Of a stretch of 64,000 bases of DNA, positions 2,195 through 19,067 are shown one piece after another (within the stretch, counting starts at the first letter, position 1; the number at the start of each line of letters is the position of its first letter). Source of the DNA: Bradyrhizobium sp. Ash2021 (lineage in GTDB: Bacteria > Pseudomonadota > Alphaproteobacteria > Rhizobiales > Xanthobacteraceae); assembly GCF_031202265.1 (NCBI RefSeq), contig NZ_CP100604.1, positions 620,001-684,000 on the forward strand, in the 5' to 3' direction. Both the position numbers and the translations under genes were made by a program. Under the pieces are notes generated by a model that saw only the letters and a list, made by a program, of their open reading frames with translations, was not told the DNA's origin and searched no databases.

Positions 2195-2679
2195 CTAGTA
2201 ATGCCACATCCGGCTCTCTGCTGGAAACGGACATTCCCTGGCGTTCGACCGTCACGAATCACATTCTCGTAAGGGCAAGTATCGCACTCGGATAGGACGG
2301 CCATCTGACGAGCCCCATTTGACCAACGAGCCTTTTGCACACTGCTCCGCGCGCGCAACGGCTAATGTCCTAATCGGGTCATCGGAAGTCGCGACGGGTT
2401 CACAGCATGTCCGCTTTACCTTGGCGTGATGTCGCATTTTGGCCCTTTTGCGAAGTGCTGACCGGCTTTGCGAACGTCTGCTAATTCGGGGAAAGCGGAA
2501 GCGACAACGACAGGGTCGAATAGACGCGAATGACCCACTCCGGAAGTCGCCCCTTCCGATGAACCTCCGCTGTCATGTCGCAAAATATTGGGGTCGCAAA
2601 ACATATATTCCACTAAACCGCTGCGCGGTAGGGAGCATGCAGCAACCGTTCGAATAGGGAAGCGGGGGCCGAGGCCGGG
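2195..2679. other. Non-coding stretch with degenerate repeat copy
   Basis: No supportable gene. About 2380-2470 repeats the motif seen near 385-440. It continues with TTTTGGCCCTTTTGCGAAGTG, which resembles the segment near 22838 (TTTGGCCCTTCACGAAATG). Confidence 0.35.
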
Positions 2680-2916
2680 TCAACGATCCTCCCGTGCTCT
2701 TCGGCGTGCCGCTTGGCCGGTGGCCTCGCTGAAGAGGTGGCGTGGGATGTTGATCAGCGCAAAACGTCGCCGTTCTTCAGCGTGCGTTTCAAAATCTGCC
2801 TCCACAAAAATCTCGACGGTTTCCTCGCTGGCATGAATTTCGACGCGTATAGGCGAGTCGCCCAAATCCACTTCGTATCGGCGACCATTCTTTCCCCGCA
2901 TAATCGCGTGCGCCAT
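2680..2916 (-). CDS. Small conserved-looking hypothetical protein
   Basis: A 78-residue soluble protein starting MAHAIMRGKNGRRYEVDLGD, acidic in the middle with a basic C-terminus (GQAARRRAREDR). Its start lies one base after the stop of the upstream frame on the same strand (TGA, then A, then ATG), which suggests translational coupling. The pattern of alternating charged and hydrophobic residues suggests a small beta-rich protein. No family was recognised. The coupling and codon pattern are the main reasons for calling it real. Confidence 0.5.
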   Translation of the reverse strand: MAHAIMRGKNGRRYEVDLGDSPIRVEIHASEETVEIFVEADFETHAEERRRFALINIPRHLFSEATGQAARRRAREDR

Positions 2917-2917
2917 T

Positions 2918-3205
2918 TCAGTTCTGCCTCTGGCCCTGCTTCTTTAGTTTCTTAACCCGATGCTTCTGATACCCGAGAACAGCAGGCACAAGTGGCATCG
3001 CGCGAGCCACCCGAACGTGGGTCAATGAGACGACAAGCGCTTGTCCGGTTTCATCGGAGCGCGACAGATGACACACGATACCGCCCTCGTCACCGGCATA
3101 TGATACGTCCCACACGGTTTGGCGAATGCCGCTCACCGCAGTCACATTCTGCTCCTGGAGATAGTGGATCAGCGCCGGCATCAATTCGACTTCGAACGGC
3201 GCAGC
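2918..3205 (-). pseudogene. Truncated gene of unknown function, C-terminal part
   Basis: The last 85 or so codons read like a genuine protein (MPALIHYLQEQNVTAVSGIR, VWDVSYAGDEGGIVCHLS, then a basic tail HRVKKLKKQGQRQN). It ends one base before the next gene. Upstream of about 3205 the frame runs antisense to a methyltransferase remnant and looks non-coding, so the 5' end has probably been lost in a rearrangement. Met at the start of MPALIHY could serve as a new start. Family unknown. Confidence 0.4.
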
Positions 3206-3229
3206 TGCTTTCAACGCGGCGACAGCCTG

Positions 3230-3553
3230 CCCGCCTCCTCGCTGGATGCCGCCATCCTCGTGCACATGTATCACGAGGTCGCCCAACCCTATGCCTTTCT
3301 CTACAATCTTGCGCCCGCCTTGAAGCGGGGTGCGCGGGTCGGAATCGTCGACCTCGAGCGTCCGACGCCGGAGCACGGCACGCCAATAAAGCTCTTGCGT
3401 TGCGAACTGACCGCCGTGGGCTATCGTGAGATCGCCACGTATCAGCTCGCGGGCGATGGCGGGTACCTCGCCGTGTTCTCTCCGCCGGAGGAAGCGGGCC
3501 GAAAATCTCCCCGGGACATCGTTGCGTGTGGGGATCGTGCCGGCACTCGCTGA
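3230..3553 (+). pseudogene. Class I SAM-dependent methyltransferase, C-terminal remnant
   Basis: The plus frame ending at TGA 3551-3553 reads LDAAILVHMYHEVAQPYAF, LAPALKRGARVGIVDLERPT and GYREIATYQLAGDGGYLAVF. This corresponds to motifs IV to VI of Rossmann-type methyltransferases ('D-x-x-x-x-VHMYHE', then 'L-K-x-G-x-x-x-IVD'). The SAM-binding glycine motif is absent: upstream of about 3230 the frame is antisense to another remnant. The 3' end overlaps the glycosyltransferase gene on the other strand by about 110 bases. It may have belonged to the adjacent cluster before truncation. Confidence 0.55.
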
Positions 3554-4278
3554 TCCCTGACAAACGTCATCGACATGGACCAGGCCGCCTTGAAGCCGGC
3601 GACGGGATTGCCAGAGACCTTCGATACGCCGCCGATCCGGCTCCGCTGCCCGACAGCGATCTCCAGTGCCGGCAAGCGGGCGGCCGCTACCCGCATCAGC
3701 ATTTCCAGGTTCCAGCCATAGGTCTCCTCCTTCATGCCGAGACGTATGAGGACGTCCCGTCGGATGGCGCGAAACGGCGACAGGTCGGTAAAGCTCGCGC
3801 CATAGACGAGGCGCAGGAGCAGCCGGCCGACATGGGCCGCGAGAATCTGCTGCGGCGCCGGGCTACCGGGCTCGCGCCGACCGCGAACGCGCGAGCCGAG
3901 AACGAAGATGGCCCGCCCAGCAACGATCGGCGACACCAGATCAGGGATGAATTCCGCAGGATCGCTGCCGTCGCCGTCGAGGAAGAGGAGAATGTCGGCG
4001 TCATCGCGCAGGGCGGCGATGCCCGCCTGGATGGCGCGACCGTAGCCACGCCGCGGCTCGACAATCACGCGGGCCCCGGCGGCTTCTGCGAACTCGGCCG
4101 TACGGTCTCGCGAACCGCCGTCAACAACGACGACCTCGCCCACATTCTGCGCCAGCACCGCAGTTACGACCTGCCCTATCGCCGTTTCCTCGTCGGGGCA
4201 GGGAATGATCGCGGAAATAACGGGCGTACGGAGCCATGCAGGCCGCCTCGAGCCGGTCTCGTCATTCACCGCGTTCAT
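3442..4278 (-). CDS. Family 2 glycosyltransferase (polyprenyl-phosphate sugar transferase-like)
   Basis: A 278-residue GT-A fold protein of the dolichyl-phosphate mannose/glucose synthase type. Visible landmarks are the nucleotide-sugar start VISAIIPCPDEETAIGQVV, EVVVVDGGSRDRT, and the metal-binding LLFLDGDGSDP (D-x-D). These are followed by the acceptor region FTDLSPFRAIRRD and ETYGWNLEMLMR. The ATG at 4276-4278 overlaps the stop of the radical SAM gene (ATGA), so the start is secure. After about residue 245 (MTFVRDQR) the sequence no longer resembles the family and runs antisense through the methyltransferase remnant. The native C-terminus has probably been replaced by a rearrangement. No C-terminal membrane helix was seen. 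Confidence 0.8.
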   Translation of the reverse strand: MNAVNDETGSRRPAWLRTPVISAIIPCPDEETAIGQVVTAVLAQNVGEVVVVDGGSRDRTAEFAEAAGARVIVEPRRGYGRAIQAGIAALRDDADILLFLDGDGSDPAEFIPDLVSPIVAGRAIFVLGSRVRGRREPGSPAPQQILAAHVGRLLLRLVYGASFTDLSPFRAIRRDVLIRLGMKEETYGWNLEMLMRVAAARLPALEIAVGQRSRIGGVSKVSGNPVAGFKAAWSMSMTFVRDQRVPARSPHATMSRGDFRPASSGGENTARYPPSPAS

Positions 4279-5354
4279 AGGCTCCAGCGCAGGCCACAAT
4301 TGGCGCAGCTCCTGGGCGGCTTGTCCGACAGGAGCGCCGCACGAAAGTCCCGGTACGCGGTCCCGTTCCAGATGTCATGCAAGGACTGCCGCCCTGCATG
4401 GCCCAGCGTGTAGTTGTCGTAGCCATGCTGCGAAAACGGCGCGATACAGCAGGGCAAGGCGCGGCCATTGGCCGTAAAGTACATCAACGACCAGGGCCGC
4501 CGACAGAGCGACCACGGCGAACCGTCGCCACTGCCCTTCAGACTTAACCCCGGCTCGGTCGCCGCGCCCGACGCGCTGAAGGTGACACCGAGGGAGCGCG
4601 CCAGATTCTCGGCCTGTTTCAGATAGATCGCTTCGCCCTCCGTCAGCCGTTCGAACAACGCCTGATCCGGCTGTGCTTTGCCAATGGCTGCTTCGTCGAA
4701 AAAAACGAGCCGTTGCAGATAGACCTCCTTGACACCGATCTCGGCGGCAATTTTCACAAATGTCGGAAGCTCCTCTACAGTCTCTTTCAGGCCTGTGAGC
4801 CAAACGGAAACCTTGGGAGTGGTGAGTCCCTCCCGCTCCTGCAGCTCGCGAAACGCACGCACGTTGCGGATGATGCGACTGAAATAATCCTTGCCGCGGA
4901 TCGCCTTGAAGCTCTCGCGGTTTGACGCGTCGAGCGACACACGCAGCTCATCAAGCCCGGCGTCGATCAGCGCGCGGCCGTTGCGCTCACCTAGCACCGT
5001 TCCATTGGTGTTGAACAGGACGTAAACGCCGCGGTCCTTCAGATATCTGACCATCCGGGGCAGGTTCGCGACTAGCATGGGCTCGCCGACGCCGTGCAGA
5101 ACCGCCCGTGCGAGATCAGGAACCTGGTCGACAATCGACGCGAACAGATCCCAGCTCATGTCTGCCGGCGGCTCGAGCTCCTCGTAGGTGCGAGGACAGG
5201 TGGTGCACAGCAGATTGCAGCGGTTGGTCACCTCCAGATAAAGGCAGACCGGCGGACGCCGGGCGACCTCCGTGCGCTCGCCCGAGACCTGCTCGTGATA
5301 GCGGCGCGGATCGAAGGCCGCGCGAGTGCCTGGCGCTTCGCCTGAAATACTCAT
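4275..5354 (-). CDS. Radical SAM/SPASM enzyme
   Basis: A 359-residue radical SAM enzyme. The 4Fe-4S/SAM motif is CNLLCTTC (C-x3-C-x2-C) in LYLEVTNRCNLLCTTCPR. It is followed by VLHGVGEPML (the 'GGEP' position reads GVGEP), LFNTNGT and LRVSLDAS. A C-terminal SPASM-type region carries CRRPW, ALPCC and SCANCGL, ligands for an auxiliary cluster. The start is fixed by an ATGA overlap at 5351-5354 with the preceding glycosyltransferase stop, and the end overlaps the next gene in the same way, so it is the fourth gene of a coupled operon. Substrate unknown. Its neighbour, a nucleoside phosphorylase, suggests an adenosylated product or a modified small molecule; this is inference. Confidence 0.85.
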   Translation of the reverse strand: MSISGEAPGTRAAFDPRRYHEQVSGERTEVARRPPVCLYLEVTNRCNLLCTTCPRTYEELEPPADMSWDLFASIVDQVPDLARAVLHGVGEPMLVANLPRMVRYLKDRGVYVLFNTNGTVLGERNGRALIDAGLDELRVSLDASNRESFKAIRGKDYFSRIIRNVRAFRELQEREGLTTPKVSVWLTGLKETVEELPTFVKIAAEIGVKEVYLQRLVFFDEAAIGKAQPDQALFERLTEGEAIYLKQAENLARSLGVTFSASGAATEPGLSLKGSGDGSPWSLCRRPWSLMYFTANGRALPCCIAPFSQHGYDNYTLGHAGRQSLHDIWNGTAYRDFRAALLSDKPPRSCANCGLRWSL

Positions 5355-6675
5355 TGCACCAACTCCGCGTCTGCGGTCTGCGAATTGCGGCTTCTCCAGC
5401 TCACCAAGGCCCAAGCCAGCAAGAGACCTCCGAACAGAATTGACTTGGTCACGATTCTCGGAATGTAGAGGTCCCAATCGAGTTGTTCGGACAGCAAGAG
5501 CGCACCGATCGAAACGACCCAGGTCGGCGCGGTGCCACACAGGGCAACGAACGGCGTCACGACGAGAAAATACCAGGGGTAATTCGGCGACAACAACAAA
5601 AGCGTGAGGAGTAACAGCATGTTGATGTCGGCAAGAATCCCTTGAACAGGAGGACCAGCGCAGCCAGTACGAAATAAGCAGCAACATCACCTTGATGCGT
5701 GCCAAACACAAGCCGCCAGAGCGACAACGGCCAGAGATCATAGCCGGCACTGATCCCCTCTTCCGTCAGATAGCCTTTCGCCAGGTATCCGAGAACGCCC
5801 CAACCGATCGATAGATAAGGGAGATAACAAAGCACCACGACGGCGATCACGACCAGCGGCATCTTGAGGTCCCATGGGCGCCAGATCGCAGCCAGCACCG
5901 GCGCCACGTAAGGTTTTACCAGCAGCGAAAATGCGATCAGAACGGATCCGCGGAGAGCGTGGCCGGTCAGGGCAATCCACAGGCCCAGCAGCATCAGCGC
6001 AACCATCAGCGCGTCGACGTGACCGCTGTTGGCGATTTCCCACAACGGAAGCGGATGCCAGAGATAGGCGATCACGCGCGTAATCGGGCGGTTTATCCGC
6101 CGCAGGAAGAGCATGATCAGTACAACAGTGAGAGCCTCGCACCCCAGCATTGCGAACCGCATCATGGTCACGCTTTCACCGAACCGCGTGACAATGAGGA
6201 AGAAAGACTGCGCCACCGGAGGATAGATGGTGACGGCAGAATCGACCCGGTCGATGTGAGGAAAGATCGCCTCGTCGCGCAGAAATGCCAGCGCCTGATT
6301 GGCCGGAAAATAACGGTATGGATTGATGCCGGCGGCTTGAACCTTGCCATCCCAGACATAGCGATAGATATCACTGGACAGAAGCGGATCGAACAGGAGC
6401 ACATAGGCTCTCAGCACGATCGCAATTCCGAAGATAAGCCATAGCGCACGCCCGGTTCGCACGCGCTCGGCCAGGTGCGTTGCCATAATCGTCAGCAGGC
6501 CTGCGGCTACGGTCAGAGCGATGAAGGCATTGTCACCATAAGTCTCGAAAGCAAAAGGGGTCACCAGGGTCAGACCAACCAGGACAGCACCGACGCTCGC
6601 CAACAGATAAAATGGGAGCACCTCGATGGCGTAGCGCATCGGTCGACCGGGTTGACTGGTCATGGACCCTGGCAT
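5351..6675 (-). pseudogene. GT87-like polytopic mannosyl/glycosyltransferase, frameshifted
   Basis: Multi-helix membrane glycosyltransferase related to DUF2029/GT-C enzymes. The loop after the second helix pair has the acidic LLFDPLLSSDIYRYVWDGKV ('DP-x-x-S-x-D-x-x-R-Y-x-W-D-G') and NPYRYFP typical of lipid-linked sugar transferases. The reading frame breaks near 5610-5630: the first frame runs to 5557 with an unlikely Cys-rich tail, while the frame ending at 5351 continues with NMLLLLTLLLLSPNYPWYFL. Joining them needs one extra base, so a 1-base deletion (or a sequencing error) is likely. The ATG at 6673-6675 with AAGG upstream lies 8 bases after the preceding stop. The corrected stop overlaps the radical SAM start by 4 bases. 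Confidence 0.8.
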
Positions 6676-6683
6676 TAGCGGCC

Positions 6684-7388
6684 TTAAGGGCTTATCTGCG
6701 GCGCGGCTGCGTTGAGAAAGGTCCGGCTTGCCGGAGCAAATCCACCAGCACGAAAGCGGGTCGAATCGCCGGCCAGTTCGTCCTGCAACCATCGCAACGT
6801 TTGCATGTCGTCGACATCATACCATTCGGGAAGCAGTGTCGTGGCAAGCCCGATTTCGGCGGCGCGCTCGCATGTAGCCCGAGCCACGGTTTCCGTTCCC
6901 CATGCGATCTGCGTGAACAGATGCTGATGTGGACGTTTCAGGCCGATGAGGTAATAGCCGCCGTCGCTTGCCGGCCCGACCACCATCCTGTCCCCCGGCT
7001 CGCGCAGGGCTTCGACGGCCTGTACCAGGAAGCGGGTTGGCAAGGTCGGGCTGTCGCCATTGACCAGCAGGACACCGTCATGTCCGGCATGCAGGAACGC
7101 GCGCATCGCGCCAAGCAGCACGTACCCCAGATCATCACCGGTTTGCAGCAACAGTCCGAACCCCGCGGGAAGCAACTGATGCATGATGTGTTCGGCTCCC
7201 GCAGGAGCGTAGACGCCGTAGCCGCGCCTGCCGAGCGCCTCCGGTACCGCCTCGATTGCCGCCGCAACATCGCGCAGAAAGCAAGCGGAGAGCTCCGATG
7301 CGGCCACCTCGCCAATGGCGGTCGCGAGCCGCGTCTTTGAGCGGCCGGGCTGCGGCGCCTTGCGTATGATCCCGATCGCCGCGCTCAC
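6684..7388 (-). CDS. TIGR04282/DUF2064-like transferase (CofC-like GT-A fold)
   Basis: A 234-residue protein of the DUF2064 family, annotated in databases as TIGR04282 arsenosugar-type glycosyltransferase. Visible are the N-terminal KAPQPGRSKTRL nucleotide-binding loop, LLVNGDSPTLP (metal/substrate loop) and GPASDGGYYLIGL. The family resembles CofC and MobA nucleotidyltransferases and probably activates or transfers a sugar-phosphate or nucleotide; the substrate is unproven. It starts at GTG 7386-7388, overlapping the stop of the nucleoside phosphorylase (GTGA). It is cytoplasmic and the second gene of the operon. Confidence 0.85.
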   Translation of the reverse strand: MSAAIGIIRKAPQPGRSKTRLATAIGEVAASELSACFLRDVAAAIEAVPEALGRRGYGVYAPAGAEHIMHQLLPAGFGLLLQTGDDLGYVLLGAMRAFLHAGHDGVLLVNGDSPTLPTRFLVQAVEALREPGDRMVVGPASDGGYYLIGLKRPHQHLFTQIAWGTETVARATCERAAEIGLATTLLPEWYDVDDMQTLRWLQDELAGDSTRFRAGGFAPASRTFLNAAAPQISP

Positions 7389-8261
7389 GGCAGGAACCGG
7401 GACCGCAGGCGATCGGCGGCGATCGCAATCAACTGGAGCGCGTCATGGCTGCCGTCCGCTTCACCCTTTTCAAAATCCCCATCAATGCGCCCCATTTGAT
7501 TTGTCACATGGGCAAAACACAGGACGGGCTTTTGTCGGACTTGCGCAAACGCGTAAAGCGCGGCGGCTTCCATTTCGGACTGCCACCAGGTTCCTTTCGC
7601 GCATAGCGTCGATCGCTGGCTGGGTTTCACGGAACGGCGCGTCTGTTGTCCAGGTTGCGCCCGTGAGAACGGGCACGGGAAATCTCTCGAATACGCCATT
7701 GAGCGCCGAGATCAATCCGGGATCGGCATGCGAATAGTCCGACGCGGCCATGTAATGATAGCTGGTGCCTTCGTCGCGCAGCGCGCGTTCGATGATGACG
7801 AAATAGGGCGGCGGGCGTATCGGCACGATCTGTCCGGAGGACGTGACGCTGATCAACAGTTTGCAGCCCGATGCGAACATTTCCTCGGCGATCAGCACCG
7901 CGTAAGAGGCGCCGACGGCGCAGCCGACAATTCCGAAATCAATCCCGTTGCGGCTGAAAGTGTAGAGCTGCGTATGGTAGCAGGCCCACCCCGATTCCAG
8001 CCGGGCCTCGCTGCCGGCAATGAGACTGCGCACCATGTCGCCGTCAGGGTCGAGGATGCAGATGTCCGGGACGCGGGAGTCCGCAATCCGCTTTTGTCTG
8101 CGGGCTTCGCGCAGCAGATTTTCCGGCGTAAATGCGGACGGCTGCGTGTAATGCTTTTGCGCAAGGATGGGCGGCACTCCGCCGTCATTGACCGCCATCA
8201 CCAGACAGACCTCGTTACGCCGTAGCCGGTCATTGGTAGCGTTCTCCACGTCAGTGGGCAA
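7385..8261 (-). pseudogene. Nucleoside phosphorylase (PF01048-like), frameshifted
   Basis: First gene of the operon. The frame from 8261 reads ILAQKHYTQPSAFTPENLLR, ICILDPDGDMVRSL, GIVGCAVGASYAVLIAEEMF and LISVTSSGQIVPI, the phosphate-binding and ligand-site pattern of uridine/purine nucleoside phosphorylases. Near 7600 the frame breaks. The downstream frame (ending 7385) continues GTWWQSEMEAAALYAFAQV, which contains the conserved 'EMEAAALYAF' signature with the ribose-binding Met-Glu. A 2-base loss in a CGCGCG run (seen as CGCGAAA) restores the family sequence. The ends overlap the next gene exactly, which supports the corrected frame. The start at TTG 8259-8261 is uncertain; an ATG at 8196-8198 is another choice. 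Confidence 0.8.
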
Positions 8262-8555
8262 GCGCCGTCAATTGGCTGCCGCTCCGCAGGTTGGAGCCGG
8301 AGACAACAGCGCCTCCGGCATCATGAAAAAACGACCCGAATGATGTAACAAGTGCCTTTCGACGGCTCAATGACTGGGAATTGATCACAAGCCCAATGCC
8401 CGCAGCCACTGCAGGTATGGCTCGGGTTGGCCATGTGCGAAGTTGATCGTGTTGATCCGACGGAACGGATCGCCTAGCATCTGTCTTGAGGAAGGCGGGT
8501 CCGATATTTTCAACGTGGGCAGTGACGTTGTGGCGTAAGGATCTCGAGGGCTGTC
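8262..8555. promoter_or_regulatory. Divergent intergenic region of the two cluster arms
   Basis: A 294-base gap separates the minus-strand operon (starting 8261) from the plus-strand acyl-CoA dehydrogenase (8556), so it must hold both promoters. No clear operator palindrome was recognised. Confidence 0.35.
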
Positions 8556-9701
8556 ATGAATCACGAGACCGCAGTTTCGAATGCCAGGGAAATCGCAGAT
8601 CGGATCCTCGCGCCGGCGGCAAGGCAAAACGACAAGGATGCTCGATTTTCGTCCGAGGCAATCGCGGCGCTCGGTTCGGCCGGATTGCTGGGGATTATGC
8701 TGCCCGCCGAAGTGGGCGGCTCTGCCCTGGGACCGCGGACCCTCGCTGCGGTCGTCACGACGCTCGCAGAAACGGACGCGTCCGCCTCGATGGTCTATTT
8801 GATGCACATGTGCGGCACCGCGACGATCGCGGCGGCCCGTTCGGGCGTCCCGGTGGCGCAGACGCTGAAGGACATTTCGGCAGGCCGGCATCTCACCACG
8901 CTGGCATTCAGCGAAGCTGGATCGCGCAGCCACTTCTGGGCGCCCGTATCGCGAGCGAAGCGCAATGGAGCCAACGTCCGCCTCACAGCCCAAAAATCCT
9001 GGGTTACGAGCGCCGGTCACGCGCAAAGCTATGTTGTCTCGGCCCTCGCTCCTGATGCGACGGGTCCAACCGATTCCACCCTTTACCTGTTGGCCAGCAG
9101 TACGCCCGGACTGTCAGTTGCCGGCCCCTGGGATGGTCTTGGGATGCGCGCCAACGCGTCCGCGCCGATGATCCTCGAGGATTGCGAAGTCGAGCCTGGT
9201 CTGCAACTGACCGACGACGGCGCCGGCTTCAAGGCGATGCTGGAGATCGTGCTTCCACTGTTCAACCTCGGGACCTCCGCGGTCGCGCTGGGTCTTTGCC
9301 GGGCCGCAGTGGCGGGAACTGCGGCTCATCTCAAGAGCGCGCGCTTCGAGCATTTGGGCCAGACCCTTGGAGAGAGCCTGCCGACACTCCGCGCGCAGCT
9401 TGCGACGATGCAGATCGACACTGACGGGCTCGCGGCGCGTGTCGACGATCTCGTCGATCACCTCGAACGCCCCCGAGAGACCACCATGCTGCGTGTGCTC
9501 GAGGCCAAGGCGGCGGCAGGTGACACTGCGATCGCCGTCACCTCAGCGGCGATGCGGGTGTGCGGAGGCGCTGCATTTTCCAGGCATTTGGCCATCGAGC
9601 GATTGTTCCGCGATGCTCATGCCGGCGCTGTCATGGCGCCGACGGGCGATGTTCTGCGCGAGTTCATCGGCAAAGCCGTCCTGGGAATACCGCTGTTCTG
9701 A
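8556..9701 (+). CDS. Acyl-CoA dehydrogenase family flavoprotein
   Basis: A full-length 381-residue acyl-CoA dehydrogenase-fold enzyme. The N-terminal helical domain includes LGIMLPAEVGGSALGPRTLA. The middle beta domain has LTTLAFSEAGSRSHFW (FAD/substrate loop), AQKSWVTSAGHAQSYVVSA and ANASAPMILEDCEV. The C-terminal domain has RVCGGAAFSRHLAIERLFRD ('CGG-x-x-x-x-x-x-x-x-x-E-R-x-x-R-D', FAD contacts). The usual catalytic Glu near the C-terminus is not obvious in ...RDAHAGAVMAPTGDVLREFI, so it may be a monooxygenase-like (DszC/hydroxylase) member instead of a true dehydrogenase. ATG with GAGGG upstream. It is followed 80 bases later by a binding-protein gene, likely in one transcript. Confidence 0.85.
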   Translation: MNHETAVSNAREIADRILAPAARQNDKDARFSSEAIAALGSAGLLGIMLPAEVGGSALGPRTLAAVVTTLAETDASASMVYLMHMCGTATIAAARSGVPVAQTLKDISAGRHLTTLAFSEAGSRSHFWAPVSRAKRNGANVRLTAQKSWVTSAGHAQSYVVSALAPDATGPTDSTLYLLASSTPGLSVAGPWDGLGMRANASAPMILEDCEVEPGLQLTDDGAGFKAMLEIVLPLFNLGTSAVALGLCRAAVAGTAAHLKSARFEHLGQTLGESLPTLRAQLATMQIDTDGLAARVDDLVDHLERPRETTMLRVLEAKAAAGDTAIAVTSAAMRVCGGAAFSRHLAIERLFRDAHAGAVMAPTGDVLREFIGKAVLGIPLF

Positions 9702-9781
9702 GCGCGAGAGCGCTGCGCCGCCAGGGATCGTTCGTTCGCGTTTGATGGCGGTCAAATGGTCAGAGAAAGCGAGAAGCAACC

Positions 9782-10621
9782 ATGAGCCGGACGATCTGGG
9801 TAGGTGCCGTCGCATATGATCCGAAGGTGGTCGGCATCTGGGAGGGCATGCGACGGTATTTTCACGAGGAAGCGCATCTGCCTGTCGAAGTCGTGTTGTT
9901 TCAGAGCTACGAGGCCCAGGTCGCCGCTCTCCTGGCCTTGCCCGGTGAGCCGCTGCCGCACATTGATATCGGGTGGAATACAAACCTCGCCTATATCCAG
10001 TCCGATGCCTGGAGCGACAAGCGCTGCCGACCTATCGCGATGCGCGATACCGACGTGGGCTGGATGACCAAGATCGTCGCCGTCACGGGTGGACCGGTTG
10101 TCAGGCTTGCCGATCTTAAAGGCCGCACCTTGGCCCTCGGCAGCCGCGACAGCGGCCATGCGGCAATCCTTCCGGTTTATTTTCTGCAGCGGGAGGGACT
10201 GGTCGAGGGGAAGGATTACCGATCGCTGCGCTTCAACTCCGACCTCGGCAAGCACGGCGACACGGGGACAAGCGAGTCCGATGTCGTTCGCGCAGTCCTC
10301 GACGGCCGCGCCGACGCCGGCGCAATCGGCAGCCCGTTCTGGAATGCCGTGCACACCGAGCGTCTGGTACCGGAAGGAGCGCTAACCGAGATCTGGACCT
10401 CGCGGCCCTATAATCACTGCATGTTCACGGCCCGGCCCGATCTGGACCCCGCGTTGGAGCAGCAGTTCGCCAAAGCCCTTTTCGGGATGAGCTACGACAA
10501 CCCGACGCATCGTCCGGTGCTCGAGGCGGAAGGCCTGCGCCAATGGATAGCGCCGCAGCTTGAGGCGTATGCTGAGTTGCGGGAAGCGTCGGCGCAGCAG
10601 GGCTTTCTAAAGCGACCCTGA
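9782..10621 (+). CDS. PhnD-like phosphate/phosphonate-type binding protein without signal peptide
   Basis: A 279-residue periplasmic-binding-protein fold of the PhnD/PF12974 class: WVGAVAYDPKVVGIWEGMRR, VAVTGGPVVRLADLKGRTLA, GSRDSGHAAILPVYFL, VVRAVLDGRADAGAIG. The 'S-R-D-S-G' loop and the 'LDGRADAGAI' motif are the usual anion-binding landmarks. There is no N-terminal signal peptide or lipobox, and no transporter permease or ATPase gene is adjacent. It may therefore act in the cytoplasm, for example as a ligand-binding partner or enzyme relative of NMT1/THI5-type proteins. It stops 6 bases before the convergent radical SAM gene ends. Confidence 0.8.
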   Translation: MSRTIWVGAVAYDPKVVGIWEGMRRYFHEEAHLPVEVVLFQSYEAQVAALLALPGEPLPHIDIGWNTNLAYIQSDAWSDKRCRPIAMRDTDVGWMTKIVAVTGGPVVRLADLKGRTLALGSRDSGHAAILPVYFLQREGLVEGKDYRSLRFNSDLGKHGDTGTSESDVVRAVLDGRADAGAIGSPFWNAVHTERLVPEGALTEIWTSRPYNHCMFTARPDLDPALEQQFAKALFGMSYDNPTHRPVLEAEGLRQWIAPQLEAYAELREASAQQGFLKRP

Positions 10622-10627
10622 GCGCAG

Positions 10628-11662
10628 TCAGGCGCAATTGAAGATCATTGCCAACCGGCGCTGATGCTCAGATTCGCGATCGAAGGCGCGGCGCACGGCT
10701 GCGAAGGACTCGGCGAGTGGAAAGATGTCGCGGCTGACCAACAGGTCGTTATCCTCGGCTCCGACCGGATGCCAAAAGACACCTTCTGCCGTAATCGTCA
10801 CCTCGGGAACCAGGTCCGCCCTTGCCAATGCAATGCCCTGCCTAGCGGAGCCCCGCAGCGCAATTCGTCTGATTACGCGATTTTCCTCGCTCACATGATG
10901 GGCGTCAACGAAACTGCGGAATTCCTCGGCCTCCGCGTCAGTCGACACGGTCGCCGCCAACCGCACGCGGAATCCTTCGGCGCGGGCTCGCTCGATTCCC
11001 TCCCAGGTGCGTGCCCATGTCCCCTTTCCACGATGGCTCTCGTGACGTTCCGGCGTCGGGCTATCGAGGCTGATCTGCAGGGTTACGCGCTCGCGCGGCA
11101 AGGCCCGTAGCGTTGCGAGCCGAGCTCCGGCAAACAGCATGCCGTTGGTGAGCACCGTGGTCGACGCCGCCGCAGCGCACGCGGCAAGGATCTCGCCGAT
11201 ATCCGGCAGCACGAACGGCTCGCCGCCGGTCACAAAAATTTCGCTGACGCCGAGCTCAGCCGCCTCGACTGCGATCCGTCGCACCCGCTCGATACCAAGC
11301 GCCCGCCGCGGCGCCTTGGGCGATGAGCGCACGCAGCAATAGTCACAGCTCAGGTTGCAGTCGAAATTGGTGTAAAGCCATAGTCGAGAGCCGACAGGCC
11401 GGTCTCCTCCGACATTCTCGGGAGCCTCTCCGTATCGGAGCACCCATCGGGTGCGACCTTGTTCAATGGCTGTGTCGACCAGGCTGTTGCGGGTGAAGCG
11501 ACACCATGCCTCGAGTTCGGGGCCGATGCCTGGATCGCGGCTGGTCACGGCGACGAGATCGCCCTTACGGCCGCGACGCAGCGCAGCTATCAAATCCGGC
11601 AGGAGGCCCGAGGCAAATGTCTTGGTGCCAGCGTCGAGTTCAACGTTCGCATTCGTCCTCAT
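10628..11662 (-). CDS. Radical SAM enzyme with N-terminal TusA-like domain
   Basis: A 344-residue fusion. Residues 1-75 resemble a TusA/SirA sulfur-carrier fold (GLLPDLIAALRRGRKGDLVA, then DPGIGPELEAWCRFTRNSLV), but the catalytic Cys-Pro of TusA is missing: the position reads TFASGLLP. From about residue 95 comes a radical SAM domain with CNLSCDYC (C-x3-C-x2-C), FVTGGEPFVLPDI, TTVLTNGM and LQISLDSPTPERHE. A lone Cys sits at the C-terminus (FNCA) and no full SPASM motif is visible. The start has no good ribosome site. It converges with the PhnD-like gene. Probably part of the same pathway as the 3442-8261 operon; substrate unknown. Confidence 0.85.
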   Translation of the reverse strand: MRTNANVELDAGTKTFASGLLPDLIAALRRGRKGDLVAVTSRDPGIGPELEAWCRFTRNSLVDTAIEQGRTRWVLRYGEAPENVGGDRPVGSRLWLYTNFDCNLSCDYCCVRSSPKAPRRALGIERVRRIAVEAAELGVSEIFVTGGEPFVLPDIGEILAACAAAASTTVLTNGMLFAGARLATLRALPRERVTLQISLDSPTPERHESHRGKGTWARTWEGIERARAEGFRVRLAATVSTDAEAEEFRSFVDAHHVSEENRVIRRIALRGSARQGIALARADLVPEVTITAEGVFWHPVGAEDNDLLVSRDIFPLAESFAAVRRAFDRESEHQRRLAMIFNCA

Positions 11663-12338
11663 GTATTAATCCATGGTACTCTCAACGTTCGGTCTCTACC
11701 GTACCGGTTTTGCGCCAGAAACGATCTCACCGGAACGCTGTGAACACGACCAATCTCCAACGAAAATGCATGAAAATCAACGATCGTATTCTTTCCTGTC
11801 GCCCATAACGGCTTGGTTGCAGTTCGGTTCCTGCCGAGCCCACCAATGAAACCAGCCAAGCTTTTCTCGGCCGCCCCCTTCGCGGACCGATTGGTTCCAA
11901 ATTGCATCAGAGCTGATGAATCATGCCGACATTATTCCGGTTATCGGTTCGCGGCAGAACTGACTGGGATTCCCAGGTTCTCAATCCTACCGTGACATTC
12001 TACGCAGACTAAGAACGACTCGATTTGAAGTTCTAAAAATGCCTCGACTTCCGCATCCGAGGTAAATTCATTTAATAAATCGATCGACACTCGGTTAGCC
12101 AGAATTCCCAACGGTGAAAAACCCGTTAGGATCTTTTTGTATTTACGGACGCGGCCTTATCGGAAACCGAGTACCGCAATCGCTCTCGAGGCGGCGAGAC
12201 GTCCCTGTGCTTGTCTACTAGAAGCGCTGTGGCGGCTAGTGGATGAACTTTACTCGCGGCGGTTCGCGGTTACTCACTCAACACCAAACAACGGAAGAAC
12301 TGAAAGCACTTAATGATGGACTGGAGGACGTACTTTGC
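11663..12338. other. Non-coding region upstream of the insertion sequence, with a tRNA 3'-end-like sequence
   Basis: Nearly 680 bases, AT-richer than the surroundings, with no supportable gene. At 11815-11845 a 31-base segment ending CGAGCCCACCA looks like the T-arm and acceptor end of a tRNA (GCAG, TTCGGTT, CCTGC), but one T-stem base is missing and no 5' half is present. Confidence 0.35.
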
Positions 12339-12342
12339 CTAG

Positions 12343-13637
12343 CAGTTTGCTGAAGAACCCCCTCGCCACGGTGGGAACTTGGTGATTCACTTTATCATCT
12401 CGAATCGCTGGGGACGAGCATGCGTGGCAGGTTTGCGGATCAGGGCGGGATGTTTTCGTACATTTCGCCGGAGGCCCGGGTGCCTCCCAACCATCCTTTG
12501 CGGAAGATCCGGGTGCTGGTCCGGGATGTCTTGAGTGAGTTAAACCGCAGCCTTGGGAGACTTTACGCCAGCGATGGGCGTCCCTCGATTCCTCCCGAGC
12601 AATTGCTGAGCGCATTGTTGCTGCAGGTGTTCTACGGCATTCGGTCGGAACGCCAGTTGATGGAGCAACTGAACTATAATCTTTTGTACCGCTGGTTTGT
12701 GGGGCTTTCGCCCGACGACCCGGTCTGGGACCCGACCACCTTTACCAAGAACCGCGACCGGCTGCAGAACGGCGAGGTGTTTAAGAAGTTCATGACCAGA
12801 CTTCTGAACCATCCGCAGGTCAGGCCGCTGCTGTCGGACGAGCATTTCTCGGTGGATGGAACGCTGATCGAAGCCTGGGCTTCACAGAAGAGCTTTCGTC
12901 CCAAGGACGGCAGCGGCGACGATGATGACGGCGCGAACTTCCATGGCCAGAAGCGCAAGAACGACACCCACGCGAGCACCAGTGACCCCAACAGCCGGCT
13001 TTACCGCAAGGCGGCCGGGCGGGAGGCGAAGCTTTGCTATATGGGCCATGCCACCATGGAGAACCGGCATGGGCTGGCGGTAGCCGGCATGGTTACACAC
13101 GCCAATGGTACCGCCGAGCGCCGAGCATCGGAGATCATGCTAAAGGCCAAAAGCAAAGCTGCCGGCCACCGCATCACGGTCGGTGAGGACAAGGCGTACG
13201 ATACCACCGATCATGTGGCCAATCTTCGGGCCATCAACGTGACACCGCATGTGACGCAGAACCAGGCCGTCACCAAAACCGGCAAGACCCGCAACAGCGC
13301 CATCGACGAACGAACCACGCGGCATCCAGGGTACGGCATGTCGCAATCGCGCCGGGCGATGATCGAGTGCATCTTCGGCTGGGGCAAGCAGCACGGTACC
13401 ATGCGCAAGACCAAACATCGCGGCATCGGTCGCGTCGCCGCCAACTTCCTGCTCAATCTGATCGCCTATAACCTGATCCGCATCCCCAAGCTGATGGCCG
13501 CCTAGCGGCGCCAACGAGCAGCGCCCGCGTGCAGGTCAACAAAACTGCATCAAGCCAGCCAACACAACACATGAAACCCGGATCGACCGTCCCATTGAGA
13601 CAAAGAAACTCAACTTTCCAAGTTCTTCAGCAACCTG
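12343..13637 (+). mobile_element. IS5-type insertion sequence with terminal inverted repeats
   Basis: A complete 1,295-base element. The left end CAGTTTGCTGAAGAA (12343-12357) and right end TTCTTCAGCAACCTG (13623-13637) are inverted repeats matching at 14 of 15 positions. Both are flanked by CTAG (12339-12342 and 13638-13641), which can be read as a 4-base target duplication or as part of the repeat, since CTAG is its own complement. One transposase gene fills the inside. It sits between two stretches of gene debris, so no intact gene is disrupted. Confidence 0.85.
12420..13505 (+). CDS. IS5-family DDE transposase
   Basis: A 361-residue transposase with an N-terminal DUF772 domain (HPLRKIRVLVRDVLSEL, PPEQLLSALLLQVFYGIRSE) and a C-terminal DDE domain. 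The acidic triad is visible: first Asp in FSVDGTLIEAW, second Asp in ITVGEDKAYDT, and Glu in SRRAMIECIFGWGKQ, matching the R-x3-E-x6-K signature. It is full length and uninterrupted, so the element is potentially active. It cuts and pastes its own ends, located at 12343 and 13637. Confidence 0.9.
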   Translation: MRGRFADQGGMFSYISPEARVPPNHPLRKIRVLVRDVLSELNRSLGRLYASDGRPSIPPEQLLSALLLQVFYGIRSERQLMEQLNYNLLYRWFVGLSPDDPVWDPTTFTKNRDRLQNGEVFKKFMTRLLNHPQVRPLLSDEHFSVDGTLIEAWASQKSFRPKDGSGDDDDGANFHGQKRKNDTHASTSDPNSRLYRKAAGREAKLCYMGHATMENRHGLAVAGMVTHANGTAERRASEIMLKAKSKAAGHRITVGEDKAYDTTDHVANLRAINVTPHVTQNQAVTKTGKTRNSAIDERTTRHPGYGMSQSRRAMIECIFGWGKQHGTMRKTKHRGIGRVAANFLLNLIAYNLIRIPKLMAA

Positions 13638-13702
13638 CTAGGGCCGACCGACGTCGCGGTTTGAAGCTCGCGCTGCGGCTCCTCGTTTCCGTGGATAGCT
13701 AG

Positions 13703-13846
13703 GAGCGCCAGTATCAGCTGATCTTTGCGCTGGAGCTGAACCGGGCCGAGCGCGAATTCTTGACTGGCCAGCTGTTGGTTGCAGACGAGCGATTGACGGC
13801 GCTGTCAAATCGCGCCACGACAACGAGCGCTCCGGCGCCGTATTGA
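13703..13846 (+). pseudogene. Fragment of a large predicted-ATPase/kinase protein
   Basis: A 47-codon frame ending at TGA 13844-13846 reads RQYQLIFALELNRAEREFLT, then GQLLVADERLTALSNRA. This resembles the TPR-like region of the giant protein kinase/AAA ATPase/sensor fusions of Bradyrhizobium ('FAL-E-x-x-R-A-E-x-EFLTG-x-x-x-x-AEERL'). It has no start and is bounded by transposon debris. Confidence 0.4.
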
Positions 13847-13854
13847 CGGATATC

Positions 13855-14085
13855 TCATGCCTCGTCCTCCCCATCCCCGTTCATGTTTTTTTTAAGCAGG
13901 GGGTTCTCCAGGGTGAGATCGGCCACGACCTCCTTCAAGGCGGAGGTCTCACGGCGAAGGTCCTTTACTTCGCCGGAGGTTGCGTCGCGCGCCGTATCGC
14001 CCGCCAGCCGGCGCTTGCCGGCCTCCAGGAACTCCTTGGACCAGCCGTAATACATCGAGGCAGCGATGATGGAGCCAGCACCCTT
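13855..14085 (-). pseudogene. IS3-family OrfA transposase, C-terminal fragment
   Basis: Minus-strand frame reading ASMYYGWSKEFLEAGKRRLA, then GEVKDLRRETSALKEVVADL and LENPLLKKNMNGDGEDEA. The 'YY-x-W-SKEFLEAGK-RLAGDTAR' and leucine-zipper-like 'LRRE-x-x-x-LKE-x-x-x-D-x-x-x-E-N' are typical of IS3 OrfA. The N-terminal helix-turn-helix part is gone: near 14085 the sequence passes into an ISL3-type fragment. OrfB is absent. Confidence 0.75.
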
Positions 14086-14368
14086 CGGCGAAGCGCTCAG
14101 TAAAGATTTGACGCCCGCACAGGACGGCGTCGCCGCGGAATCGGCGGGCAATCACAAGGAGCTGTACGATCCGCCCCGAAAGCGGCAGATCGGTCACGCG
14201 TCGCCGATACCGGCTATGGACACGCCGGGAAACCGTTCCGCACGATGGGCACAGACCAACGATTCCGGATGCCCGGACCGCAATAATGGCTTTATCACCC
14301 TCGTAGTACGCACTCTCTACAACAAACCCACGCGGCACCAGACTGGAGCGGTGGAGTGCCTGCTGCAT
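14085..14368 (-). pseudogene. ISL3-family transposase, N-terminal fragment
   Basis: From an ATG at 14366-14368 the frame reads SLVPRGFVVESAYYEGDKAI, GLCPSCGTVSRRVHSRYRRR and VTDLPLSGRIVQLLVIARRF. It contains the zinc-finger C-x2-C of the ISL3 N-terminal domain and its 'RRF-x-C' counterpart region (here RRFRGDAVLCGRQIF, with one finger Cys altered). The catalytic domain is missing, cut at the join with the IS3 fragment. Confidence 0.75.
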
Positions 14369-14534
14369 GGCACTGATTCTCCCCCAATCAAAGCGCCACA
14401 CATCCCACAAACTGTATCAAAAGTGAGTCAGAGCCATTTTTCGACAGCATTCACACTCAGGTCTGCGAAACCTCATCGAGTGTCCGCTCTATTTGCCGAG
14501 CCTCTGCCGAGGCGCGCTTGCCCGTCAACGGATT

Positions 14535-15998
14535 TCAGAAGTCGACGGTCGCCGTCAACCCGACGACGAAAGTGTTGGGAATGACTCCGGTTCCTCCCGG
14601 CCGCTGGATATATTGCAGATTAGGACGCAGCAGAAACCACGGCGTTACTTGCGCACCATAGTTGATCTCATAGATCGTCTCCTCGGTTGCCACGTTGACA
14701 CTTCCCGGTTTCACGACGTTCAGGCCCTGCTGATACAAGACGGAATTGCCGTTCAGGTGCACACGGGCGACAGCCACGGAGATATAGTCATCGTCGCGAC
14801 TGGCGACGCCCTTTTGCACCAGACCAACTGCTCCTGTCCATGTGTACTGGGACGTTCTCTGGTCGCCAAATGCGATGACGCCGAAAACCGTGACACCGCG
14901 ATTGTGCGAGCCGGGTTCCCGGTAGACCATTTGCTCGCCTTGCAGCCATCCGCCCCAACGTCCGAGGTCGGTCAACATGGGCAGTCCCGTGATGCCCGCA
15001 TTATTGCCATTGATGTCGCGGAGAACGTCGGCGTAGCTGGATGAATCGTAGTAGGCGCCAATTTTGTACTTTCCCGGCAAGCCGCCGAGGCCGCTTGCCG
15101 GCAGCCAGCCGAATTCGATGGGCACAAGGACTCCGGTGCCATGAAAGCCCAGGTCGAAGCCGGACCCCGGACTGCCCGCATTAGGATTAACCTGGTAAAT
15201 GCCGGTTTGAACGTAGGACTCTGAAAAGCCTTGAATCTTGACGCGGCCGCCCCAAGCCCCGGTCGGGTAATTGAACGCTACAATGTTTGTGCTCAGAGCG
15301 GGTGTGTGACCGCAATGCACGCCAGATTGAAAGTAGCAGTAGAGCTCACTGGTGTTGTAGTCGTCACCAACTGGAGAAAATCCCACCTTGAGCTCGATGA
15401 GGTCGGACCACAGTTGCTGAGTATAGTACATTTCGGAGATGCGCGCATTCTGCCCCGCTCCGAAAACCTCCTGGGGCGATTGCAGGCTACCGATAATAGG
15501 CTTCAAATCTGTCCCGACGCGGTCGTTCAGGGTTATGACCGCCTGCGCTCCCTGCAACCCGGCCAGCTTATCGAGATCCAGCTTGGCTCCCAGGGAGACC
15601 TGTTGCGTATACGCGGCCCCCTTATTTTGTCCGCCGATCGGGTTCGCTGCGCTCTCCGAAACGTACTTCAGCTCAACGTCTACGCCCCGATCGTGGAGTT
15701 GCGTACGTAGCCCACCCCAGTCGCCGGTCATCTTGTCTTGATAGGTAACATTTTCCCGCGGCTTACCTGCAGTCCTGGTCGTTCCCGATGGGCTCGGCTT
15801 GAAAACTGGATCCGTTTGAGTGGGGGATTGGGACGGATTGGCAAAGCTACGATTGTCGTCGGCAATGACGTCATTGTCGGCTGACCGCGTTACTTGCGCA
15901 TACGCCATCGTTTCGCCCAATAACAAAATGCCAATAACGATCGACGATGCCGCGGCAATACCGGGTGTGCGAGACCAATTCTGTCGGAATATTTTCAT
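14535..15998 (-). CDS. OprB-family carbohydrate-selective porin
   Basis: A 487-residue outer-membrane beta-barrel. The N-terminal signal peptide (MKIFRQNW..., hydrophobic GIAAASSIVIGILLLGETMA, cut after AYA) is followed by a Ser/Thr/Pro-rich spacer. The OprB landmark TGDWGGLRTQLHDRGVDVEL comes next. Then come repeated amphipathic strands such as GKYKIGAYYDSSSYADV, and a terminal strand ending in Phe (VVGLTATVDF) for BAM assembly. The ATG at 15996-15998 was chosen because GGAG lies 8 bases upstream; longer frames lack this. Probably takes up sugars or similar small solutes. It stands alone on its strand. Confidence 0.85.
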   Translation of the reverse strand: MKIFRQNWSRTPGIAAASSIVIGILLLGETMAYAQVTRSADNDVIADDNRSFANPSQSPTQTDPVFKPSPSGTTRTAGKPRENVTYQDKMTGDWGGLRTQLHDRGVDVELKYVSESAANPIGGQNKGAAYTQQVSLGAKLDLDKLAGLQGAQAVITLNDRVGTDLKPIIGSLQSPQEVFGAGQNARISEMYYTQQLWSDLIELKVGFSPVGDDYNTSELYCYFQSGVHCGHTPALSTNIVAFNYPTGAWGGRVKIQGFSESYVQTGIYQVNPNAGSPGSGFDLGFHGTGVLVPIEFGWLPASGLGGLPGKYKIGAYYDSSSYADVLRDINGNNAGITGLPMLTDLGRWGGWLQGEQMVYREPGSHNRGVTVFGVIAFGDQRTSQYTWTGAVGLVQKGVASRDDDYISVAVARVHLNGNSVLYQQGLNVVKPGSVNVATEETIYEINYGAQVTPWFLLRPNLQYIQRPGGTGVIPNTFVVGLTATVDF

Positions 15999-16407
15999 AT
16001 GAAACTCCAACGAATACTCAAACTGGAAGGGGTTCGCGCGAATTGGAGAGTTCAGCGAGCTTACACCGAAGTGCAAAGCCCGCCAATTGCGGACCTTGCG
16101 AGGGTGGTCGCTGTGGAGATTGCCCTGGCGCTGGAGCGGTGAAACGGCGTCATTCAAAGCCGCGCAAATCGACGAAACCGGTTCCGTTCAACCGACGCCG
16201 GCCGAGCTTTTCGCCGTTAGCGGCGCGCGACCATTATTATTTTGACCACAACAACAGTGCGATCTGGCCGTGGCGCATCGCCAAGACGCTTAGTGCCATC
16301 AAGATCCGTCAGCGATCCGACTCCCCAAGACACTAAACTCTAATTTAATGGCGAGCCCGCAGCGCTTTACTATGTGAAAAAACGGTAATGGCTCTGAGGA
16401 TCGAGAT
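15999..16407. other. Intergenic region between porin and DUF2231 gene
   Basis: About 410 bases between divergently transcribed genes, no supportable ORF. It should carry both promoters. No operator was recognised. Confidence 0.3.
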
Positions 16408-16842
16408 ATGCAGCACGACACGATAAATGAGACGTCCTTCGCGCGCGATGCCAGCACGCAGTCAACGGCCAAAGCCGACAGACAAGCGATTCATCGAATC
16501 TTGCTTCCGTTTTCCGTCGCGTATTTCACGGCCGCTTTTGTGACCGATCTGCTCTATTGGCGGACTGCCGAGGTGATGTGGCAGAGGTTTTCCGTCTGGC
16601 TGATAGTGGCTGGTCTGATCGTGGCCGGCTTTGCGGTGATTGCTGCCGTGATCGACCTTGCACGTGGTACGCAAAGGCCGGCGCGGCTCCACGCGCTCGG
16701 CTACGCAGTTGGTGTCTCGCTCTCACTGATCAATGTCTTCATCCACAGCCGCGACGGGTATACCGCAGTCGTACCGACCGGCCTGATGCTTTCCGGGGTC
16801 GCCGTAGTCATTCTGTTGGCGACGGCCTCGGCTGGAGCTTGA
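16408..16842 (+). CDS. DUF2231-type membrane protein
   Basis: A 144-residue membrane protein with four predicted helices: about residues 32-52 (PFSVAYFTAAFVTDLLYWRT), 58-82 (FSVWLIVAGLIVAGFAVIAA), 95-112 and 120-142. It fits the DUF2231 family, whose members often lie beside PQQ-type or sorbosone dehydrogenases. An ATG with AGGATCGAGAT upstream supports the start. The next gene begins 28 bases later, so they are probably co-transcribed. It may anchor or support electron transfer for the downstream dehydrogenase; that role is inference. Confidence 0.8.
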   Translation: MQHDTINETSFARDASTQSTAKADRQAIHRILLPFSVAYFTAAFVTDLLYWRTAEVMWQRFSVWLIVAGLIVAGFAVIAAVIDLARGTQRPARLHALGYAVGVSLSLINVFIHSRDGYTAVVPTGLMLSGVAVVILLATASAGA

Positions 16843-16870
16843 CGGACCCTCATCGCGTTGGAGCAGACAC

Positions 16871-18235: not shown

Positions 18236-18539
18236 AATGGAATTTAATGGTCCCGGCTGGCTACCAAACTACAATTGGGCGGCGCACTCAGAATGGCAGA
18301 GCCCGCCGAACCCGGACTGGCCGGCCGTGAACCCACCGATCGGCGATCATATGATCTTGAGGCGGCTTGGACCGAGGCGATTCCTGTCTGACCTGTTGAA
18401 CCGGCAAGAGCGGATAAGGCGCAGCAATCCGCGACAAGCACCGCCGCGTTCTGTAGTTACCGTCAGGATGCCTTGCCTCTGGGACAGGCCGAGCATCAAC
18501 GATTTGTTCCAGGCACACCGATTCGCGCAGAGGATAACA
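18236..18539. other. Intergenic stretch after the sorbosone dehydrogenase gene
   Basis: About 300 bases with no supportable gene and no clear terminator. Confidence 0.3.
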
Positions 18540-18935
18540 ATGACCACGCCAACCGACATCGGCAAGAATGTTACCTCTGCGTCCCGCCGACGATTTCTAA
18601 CGGAAGGTGGTGCCTTGTTGGGCGGGGCCGTCATTGCTGGTGGCCTCGCTGGACATGAAGAGCGCCCGCCGCGACCAAAAATACGGGCAACCTCCCTCCC
18701 AACGTACCGGAATGGATGAAGACGCCCGGCGATCTCATGGGAAGCCAGCCATATGGCGCGCCTTCCCCGTTCGAAAAAGACGTCATCAAGAACATCTCGA
18801 AGACGTTGCCCCAGTATCTATCGGCGTCCGGACGCACGCCGTTGCAGGATCTCGACGGCATCCTCACGCCGAACGGTCTATTCTACGAGCGCCATCATGG
18901 TGGCGTTCCCACCATCGATCCTGCACAGCACGCCG
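18540..18935 (+). pseudogene. SoxC-like sulfite dehydrogenase N-terminus, frameshifted and truncated
   Basis: The ATG at 18540 opens a Tat-type leader (ASRRRFLTEGGALLGGAVIA). Near 18660 the family sequence jumps by one base to another frame, which reads PAATKNTGNLPPNVPEWMKT, PGDLMGSQPYGAPSPFEKDV and IKNISKTLPQYLSASGRTPL. It continues to HHGGVPTIDPAQH, closely like SoxC. Soon after, the similarity ends. The molybdopterin-binding core and dimerisation domain are absent. Two lesions (a 1-base loss and a 3' truncation) make this a dead gene. No soxD or other sox gene is nearby. Confidence 0.75.
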
Positions 18936-19026
18936 ACGCTGCTTGCGCAGCGCCTCCATGAGGTCGACCACTCCTTCAAGCGGTGGTGATGGCACGAAGC
19001 GTTGTTGTCGTCTCCTACGCACCCTA

Positions 19027-19045
19027 GATACCCCATGGGGGTATC
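19027..19045. promoter_or_regulatory. CsoR-like operator palindrome
   Basis: A perfect 8-base inverted repeat with 3-base centre, GATACCCCATGGGGGTATC, lies 22 bases before the multicopper oxidase start codon. The 'ATACCCC...GGGGTAT' form matches operators of CsoR/RcnR/FrmR-type repressors, which release DNA on binding Cu(I) or other ligands. It is therefore likely to make the oxidase copper-inducible. No csoR-type gene is in the window. Confidence 0.7.
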
Positions 19046-19067
19046 GTAGCGAGATGGAGTTGATGAC

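Follow-up and report, generated by a model that had tools for sequence, protein, structure and literature searches.

Gene content and state of the locus

The 64,000-nucleotide stretch of the Bradyrhizobium sp. Ash2021 genome analysed here (contig NZ_CP100604.1, positions 620,001 to 684,000; "the window") contains a block of eight genes encoding two radical S-adenosylmethionine (SAM) enzymes, a nucleoside phosphorylase-like protein, a DUF2064 protein, GT2 and GT87-like glycosyltransferases, an acyl-CoA dehydrogenase homologue and a protein with the fold of a solute-binding protein (SBP). The block is conserved and uncharacterised, and its product is probably an unusual sugar derived from a nucleoside. 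Its genes and two associated features are given below in window coordinates.

3556..4308, minus strand: GT2 glycosyltransferase, polyprenyl-phosphate sugar synthase-like and AglJ-like, 3' end altered by a 31-base deletion (PF00535, 84 bits; indel list)
4275..5354, minus strand: radical SAM/SPASM enzyme, open, 359 amino acids (aa) (Pfam and NCBIfam; 89% identity to the unbroken copy; ratio of nonsynonymous to synonymous substitution rates, dN/dS, 0.08)
5354..6615 (frames 5635-6615 and 5354-5635), minus strand: GT87-like membrane glycosyltransferase, frameshifted, 27- and 13-base deletions (Pfam; tblastn; indels)
6684..7388, minus strand: DUF2064/TIGR04282 protein, putative CofC/MobA-like nucleotidyltransferase, open (157 bits, cut-off 134)
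7388..8267 (frames 7578-8267 and 7388-7576), minus strand: NP-I family nucleoside phosphorylase-like gene, one-base frameshift near 7578 (PNP_UDP_1)
8556..9701, plus strand: Rv1679/FadE16-like acyl-CoA dehydrogenase homologue, open (NF049984, 430 bits, below the cut-off of 600)
9782..10621, plus strand: Rv1680-like SBP-fold protein (Phosphonate-bd), no signal peptide by eye, open (NF049985, 310 bits, below the cut-off of 400)
10628..11662, minus strand: Rv1681-family radical SAM protein, weak TusA-like N-terminus, open (NF049973, 486 bits, cut-off 380)
3227..3550, plus strand: methyltransferase remnant, last 108 of 250 codons (tblastn with the protein of the unbroken copy)
2462..22942, no strand: near-exactly duplicated segment (megablast, offset 621,349 bp in its own genome)

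All eight gene families named in an earlier note on this DNA were found in the window with Pfam and NCBIfam models. The SPASM enzyme exceeds the Pfam cut-offs of both PF04055 (64.5 bits) and PF13186 (54.7 bits), and its start is most likely at 5354 rather than 5750; the GT87-like protein, at 21.5 bits, lies below the 25-bit Pfam cut-off. TIGR04282 is passed by the DUF2064 protein of the window (157.4 bits) and by one of two relatives scanned (L119, 152 bits), the other falling just under 134 (L038, 123 bits). The GT2 protein scores 98 bits, below cut-off, with the AglJ model TIGR04182, versus 54 bits with TIGR04283 (cut-off 182). The four-base-overlap operon described earlier is present in part: overlaps are visible at two junctions in the window, phosphorylase/DUF2064 and GT87/SPASM, and at three in the unbroken copy. 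The description of "three transferases" likewise holds with a qualification, as DUF2064, counted among them, appears more likely to be a nucleotidyltransferase than a glycosyltransferase.

In the window copy, breaks affect three of the eight genes, a point absent from the earlier note, and the methyltransferase, a ninth gene, is a remnant only. Relative to the unbroken copy (locus L001), the phosphorylase gene carries a one-base frameshift, the GT87 gene lacks 27 and 13 bases and the GT2 gene lacks 31 bases near its 3' end, while the genes for DUF2064, the SPASM enzyme and the Rv1679-Rv1681-like trio read through. Across all eight genes, broken ones included, dN/dS against the unbroken copy is low (0.08 to 0.18, leaving aside a short phosphorylase fragment whose dS is saturated), and the breaks probably arose recently. 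The window thus probably holds a recently broken copy of a pathway whose unbroken version resides elsewhere in the same genome. The latter was identified in an own-genome search as a third, diverged pair of both radical SAM genes; its block genes are open and share 78-81% nucleotide identity with the window copy. The 20.5 kb duplicated segment shows one mismatch to its repeat in the pieces compared. It includes an IS5-family transposase (12420-13505) and genes that, judged by eye, encode two porin-like proteins and one resembling multicopper oxidases. A Tes/TrsS-like radical SAM protein (L001, 501-1913) lies close to the unbroken block and is 52% identical to one beside the Rv1678-1681 set of a Mycolicibacterium plasmid, a third radical SAM protein shared across phyla; none of the other 15 Bradyrhizobium loci read contained it. 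The idea that CcdA accompanies Rv1681 both in the unbroken copy and in Mycolicibacterium was rejected, the match being weak and 29 residues long.

Conservation and distribution of the block

By protein names, the near relatives of the window block are Bradyrhizobium. The Rv1681 family was found above cut-off in 16 of 98 Bradyrhizobium genomes and the SPASM gene (E 1e-60) in exactly those 16; the order of trio, DUF2064, GT87, SPASM and GT2 is kept in 15 of 15 further Bradyrhizobium loci, and the earlier claim of one conserved block is thereby supported. The phosphorylase is less constant, with a full-length gene within the block in just four of these 15, besides L001. Scanning genome contigs with a SPASM alignment provided 248 relatives, of which the best 80 were taken; the core recurs in most of these 80 loci, mainly from Alphaproteobacteria. 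As these loci were chosen by closeness to one query, counts derived from them are not unbiased frequencies; presence and absence were read within ~10 kb, inside the available locus DNA, and several contigs are short. Near the SPASM gene in the best 80 of 248 loci are DUF2064 (71/80), GT87 (68/80), GT2 (74/80) and the phosphorylase (21/80), so that the scattering of radical SAM genes away from any phosphorylase or DUF2064 gene, which the note had named as refuting its proposal, is not observed. The block is a real conserved unit and not a set of chance neighbours.

Outside the Alphaproteobacteria, a Miltoncostaea plasmid (L037, Actinomycetota) carries DUF2064 fused to NUDIX, a GT87-GT2 fusion and a SPASM gene. 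Its Rv1679 homologue scores 378 bits, its Rv1680 homologue 234 bits and a shorter Rv1681-like protein 225 bits, each below the respective cut-off; selB-selA-selD adjoin the block. As this plasmid has both halves of the block, the core (DUF2064, GT87, SPASM, GT2) and the trio occur together in two phyla. Each half is also encountered on its own. In the stretches viewed of two Methylobacterium plasmids, the core stands without the trio, and the three plasmid records showing an Rv1681-like match include none from Methylobacterium. On the Mycolicibacterium plasmid NF049986, NF049984, NF049985 and NF049973 are all passed, and the Rv1678-1681 set stands, by annotation, without the core in the 21 kb stretch viewed. 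A Rhodococcus plasmid gave a partial Rv1681-like match, with no acyl-CoA dehydrogenase or PhnD-type SBP annotated nearby. Wider samples show the block to be rare and patchily distributed. At E 1e-60, the Rv1681 family was detected in 3 of 398 genomes in the phylum and class samples of the window's lineage, one of them the window's genome, and at the same threshold the SPASM gene was detected in 1 of the 289 genomes of the class sample, again the window's own.

Radical SAM enzymes and the Rv1679-Rv1681-like trio

Membership of the block enzymes in the HpnH, HpnG and ArsS families was rejected, as the family cut-offs are not reached. With HpnH (TIGR03470, cut-off 225) the SPASM enzyme scores 33.5 bits and the Rv1681-like protein 53.5 bits. 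With ArsS (TIGR04167, cut-off 300) the Rv1681-like protein scores 39.2 bits, and for the SPASM enzyme ArsS is absent among the 25 families listed of 41, the last of which scores 33.5 bits. The statement that the locus is "not simply the arsenosugar set" is therefore upheld, as neither radical SAM protein fits ArsS. The nearest NCBIfam models of the SPASM enzyme are metalloenzyme maturases, and the second radical SAM protein is assigned to the Rv1681 family (NF049973, 485.7 bits). Of the TusA-radical SAM fusion proposed for the latter, the radical SAM part is confirmed by this model and the TusA part is not: four out of four N-termini match PF01206 at 15-26 bits (18.8 bits in the window), below the cut-off of 28.6. 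A role as TusA sulfur carrier was rejected on the basis of this weak match and of the domain, in which no cysteine of the CPxP motif was seen. A ribosomally synthesised and post-translationally modified peptide as substrate was likewise dismissed. No open reading frame of 25-95 aa is conserved in more than 2 of 30 loci, and a precursor peptide in cis is thus unlikely.

In the window, the Rv1679-like and Rv1680-like proteins stay below the cut-offs of their models (see the list above). For the Rv1680-like protein the next family is TIGR04553, a putative selenate SBP, at 87 bits. Apparently devoid of a signal peptide, it may act in the cytoplasm, as an enzyme or to carry a ligand. The papers listed as naming Rv1681 deal, by their titles, mostly with tuberculosis diagnostics, antigens or proteomes.

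The nucleoside phosphorylase-like gene

By sequence and model the phosphorylase belongs to NP-I, at scores far below every NCBIfam phosphorylase cut-off listed. The comparison with HpnG suggested in the note gave a negative result: TIGR03468 (cut-off 187) provided no match at E 0.001 for members L095 and L156, and none at 1e-8 for members L001 and L097. Alignment of 17 members revealed Ser (16/17) or Asn (1/17) at the position of DeoD R87, which we take to be the phosphate-binding Arg, and Asn (17/17) at that of D204, which we take to be the base-binding Asp. The Arg and Asp of adenosine-specific, DeoD/MTAP-type enzymes are thus found in none of the 17 members, and these substitutions make phosphorolysis of adenine nucleosides less likely.

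The phosphorylase is linked to the block by its phylogenetic profile, in line with the earlier note. Its family is present in 17 of 18 Rv1681-carrying genomes, in seven of them within the block and in ten as a ~58%-identical homologue elsewhere (in G091 as two contig-edge pieces); G057 is the sole carrier without it. Among 14 block-free genomes, the first non-carriers in the list rather than a random draw, it was found in two (G001 and G007, both without the SPASM gene; Fisher p 5e-6 vs carriers). On a SPASM tree of 62 rows, made up of the window, L001 and the loci exceeding 11 kb, at least 12 changes between its presence and absence near the block are required. The surroundings of 14 out-of-block copies feature an ArsR-rhodanese regulator (8 loci), an MBL-fold protein (9), a major facilitator superfamily transporter (9) and a cysteine-desulfurase-like class V aminotransferase (6/14; Bradyrhizobium examples L151-L159).

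Partner modules around the core

Three partner modules alternate around the core, namely SelD with a selenate-type ABC transporter, a molybdenum enzyme, and Rv1679-Rv1681. In the 80 loci, the neighbours of the core include a SUOX-fold molybdenum (molybdopterin, MPT) oxidoreductase (43 loci), SelD (9 loci) and the Rv1681 gene (8 loci). SelD coincides with the molybdenum enzyme once, the other two pairs never, and 21 loci have none of the three. The model nearest to the molybdenum enzyme is MsrP, below cut-off; cytochrome b561 is located near the block in 40/80 loci. ModA-like SBPs occur near the core in 10/80 loci (e.g. L066, 5607-6335), several of them with the molybdenum enzyme. As sulfur, selenium and molybdenum partners alternate around the core, a chalcogen or redox component is suggested.

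Eight of the nine SelD loci contain the phosphorylase, and in seven, permease and ATPase genes accompany a protein related to the L064 SBP. In the Methylobacterium variant L064, SelD is accompanied by a TIGR04553 SBP (349 bits, cut-off 250), a second radical SAM protein and a HAD phosphatase, and in variant L119 a SelD fusion is found with PhnE- and PhnC-like transporter genes. At genome level, SelD is present in 27/50 block genomes vs 57/289 of the class sample (Fisher p 1.4e-6, uncorrected for kinship), the 50 having been hand-picked from the 80 and taking in all nine loci with SelD nearby; without these nine the figure is 18/41 (p 0.001, likewise uncorrected). Within Bradyrhizobium, SelD was detected in 2/16 block carriers vs 2/82 others (p 0.12). 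Strict selenium dependence, with SelD in every carrier, was rejected on these counts. In three of the genomes whose block locus carries SelD, a further SelD match is present (G771/L071, G786/L097 and G793/L111). The raw phosphorylase-SelD table gives p 5e-5; on the tree, the associations of phosphorylase with SelD, phosphorylase with the MPT enzyme and SelD with the MPT enzyme are not significant, with too few independent pairs.

Proposed pathway and alternatives

The data are tentatively attributed to a conserved sugar-modifying pathway (rough probability 0.4) in which a nucleoside-derived pentose is nucleotidylated, loaded onto a lipid, modified by radical chemistry and transferred by GT87. 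The NP-I enzyme would cleave a nucleoside to a pentose or pentose phosphate, which DUF2064 would couple to a nucleotide, before GT2 loads the sugar onto polyprenyl phosphate. The SPASM enzyme may then oxidise, epimerise or otherwise alter the sugar, and the GT87 membrane enzyme would transfer it to a periplasmic acceptor. The alternating partners, with cytochrome b561 joining the presumably periplasmic SUOX-fold enzyme, probably provide or convert a sulfur, selenium or redox component of the product. We infer every catalytic step of this route. It nevertheless appears to be the least strained reading, and the GT87-GT2 and DUF2064-NUDIX fusions fit it.

Selenium-related neighbours lend themselves to a different assignment, analogous to arsenosugars with arsenic replaced by selenium or sulfur. 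Here a reduced selenium or sulfur species would be coupled to a ribose derived from a nucleoside, NP-I would remove the base, and DUF2064, GT2 and GT87 would glycosylate the product. This would agree with SelD, phosphorylase and selenate-type SBP relatives sharing loci, with selB-selA-selD adjoining the Miltoncostaea block, with SelD enrichment among block genomes and the second SelD matches, with TIGR04553 as next family of the Rv1680-like protein, and with DoxD-like, MsrP-like, rhodanese and cysteine-desulfurase-like partners in some loci. However, 23/50 block genomes lack SelD, within Bradyrhizobium only 2/16 carriers have it, against 2/82 others, the enrichment draws on hand-picked genomes and is uncorrected for kinship, and the association of phosphorylase with SelD is not significant on the tree. 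Such a heteroatom sugar is thus regarded as unlikely. A fuller version, in which SelD (or the trio in Bradyrhizobium and Actinomycetota) brings in the chalcogen, a nucleoside is turned into a chalcogen-sugar by the radical SAM enzymes and NP-I, and DUF2064, GT2 and GT87 attach it to a lipid or cell-surface acceptor as a selenium- or sulfur-bearing glycoside, is unlikely. The earlier note had itself proposed that 5'-deoxyadenosine is added to a substrate by a radical SAM enzyme and loses its adenine to the phosphorylase, resulting in a ribosylated and further glycosylated product. Radical SAM, NP-I, TIGR04282 and GT2 proteins do share one locus, and NP-I tracks the block; still, both radical SAM enzymes fall outside HpnH and ArsS, the NP-I protein does not belong to HpnG and has neither the Arg nor the Asp of DeoD, with Asn at the adenine-binding Asp position throughout, and the genome has its own HpnG (L165, 233.5 bits). 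This chemistry is a weaker fit than the sugar route and distinctly unlikely.

Glycosylation and radical modification could also serve to mature an enzyme or carrier in the periplasm, for example the SUOX-fold molybdenum lipoprotein, which would account for the frequent MPT oxidoreductase and cytochrome b561 and for the maturase models nearest to the SPASM enzyme. As the molybdenum enzyme occurs in 0/8 Rv1681 loci and 1/9 SelD loci, such a role is considered quite improbable. Finally, unrelated genes could travel together on a mobile or duplicated segment, as the near-exact 20.5 kb duplication with its transposase, the decay of the copy and the rare, patchy block might indicate, but the core is kept across many genera and in Actinomycetota and dN/dS between the two copies of the block is low, rendering this explanation highly improbable.

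If the pathway operates as one unit, an unexplained mycobacterial trio is tied to a conserved glycosylation core of soil bacteria, in which knock-out and product detection are possible. With an unbroken copy in this genome and Methylobacterium relatives whose clusters include SelD, the question of selenium can be tested directly. Should the product be a lipid-linked pentose of nucleoside origin, it would represent a new envelope sugar route. Were a chalcogen-sugar confirmed, it would add a class of selenium metabolites, and under the chalcogen-glycoside reading the orphan mycobacterial Rv1679-Rv1681 genes would perform the same chemistry.

Comparison with known systems

Arsenosugar gene sets comprise ArsS, TIGR04282, TIGR04283 and a nucleoside phosphorylase. 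The window resembles them in a TIGR04282 protein above cut-off with a radical SAM enzyme, an NP-I enzyme and a GT2 alongside, but neither of its radical SAM proteins is ArsS and its GT2 is nearer to AglJ than to TIGR04283. The hopanoid HpnH/HpnG pair also combines a radical SAM with an NP-I enzyme. The block enzymes, in contrast, fall outside both families, and the separate HpnG gene of this genome has another radical SAM match ~1 kb away. Among sugar-modifying radical SAM enzymes of the BtrN/DesII/BlsE type, BtrN is the nearest solved sequence to the SPASM enzyme and similar in fold, albeit at just 24% identity over 222 aligned residues, and peptide enzymes match equally well. With the mycobacterial Rv1678-Rv1681 set, the window shares a radical SAM protein that passes the Rv1681 model and is flanked by Rv1680 and Rv1679 homologues, the latter two differing in that they score below those models' cut-offs. 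Whereas the annotation of the 21 kb Mycolicibacterium stretch shows no core, the Bradyrhizobium trio is joined to the DUF2064-GT87-SPASM-GT2 core in the 15 further loci.

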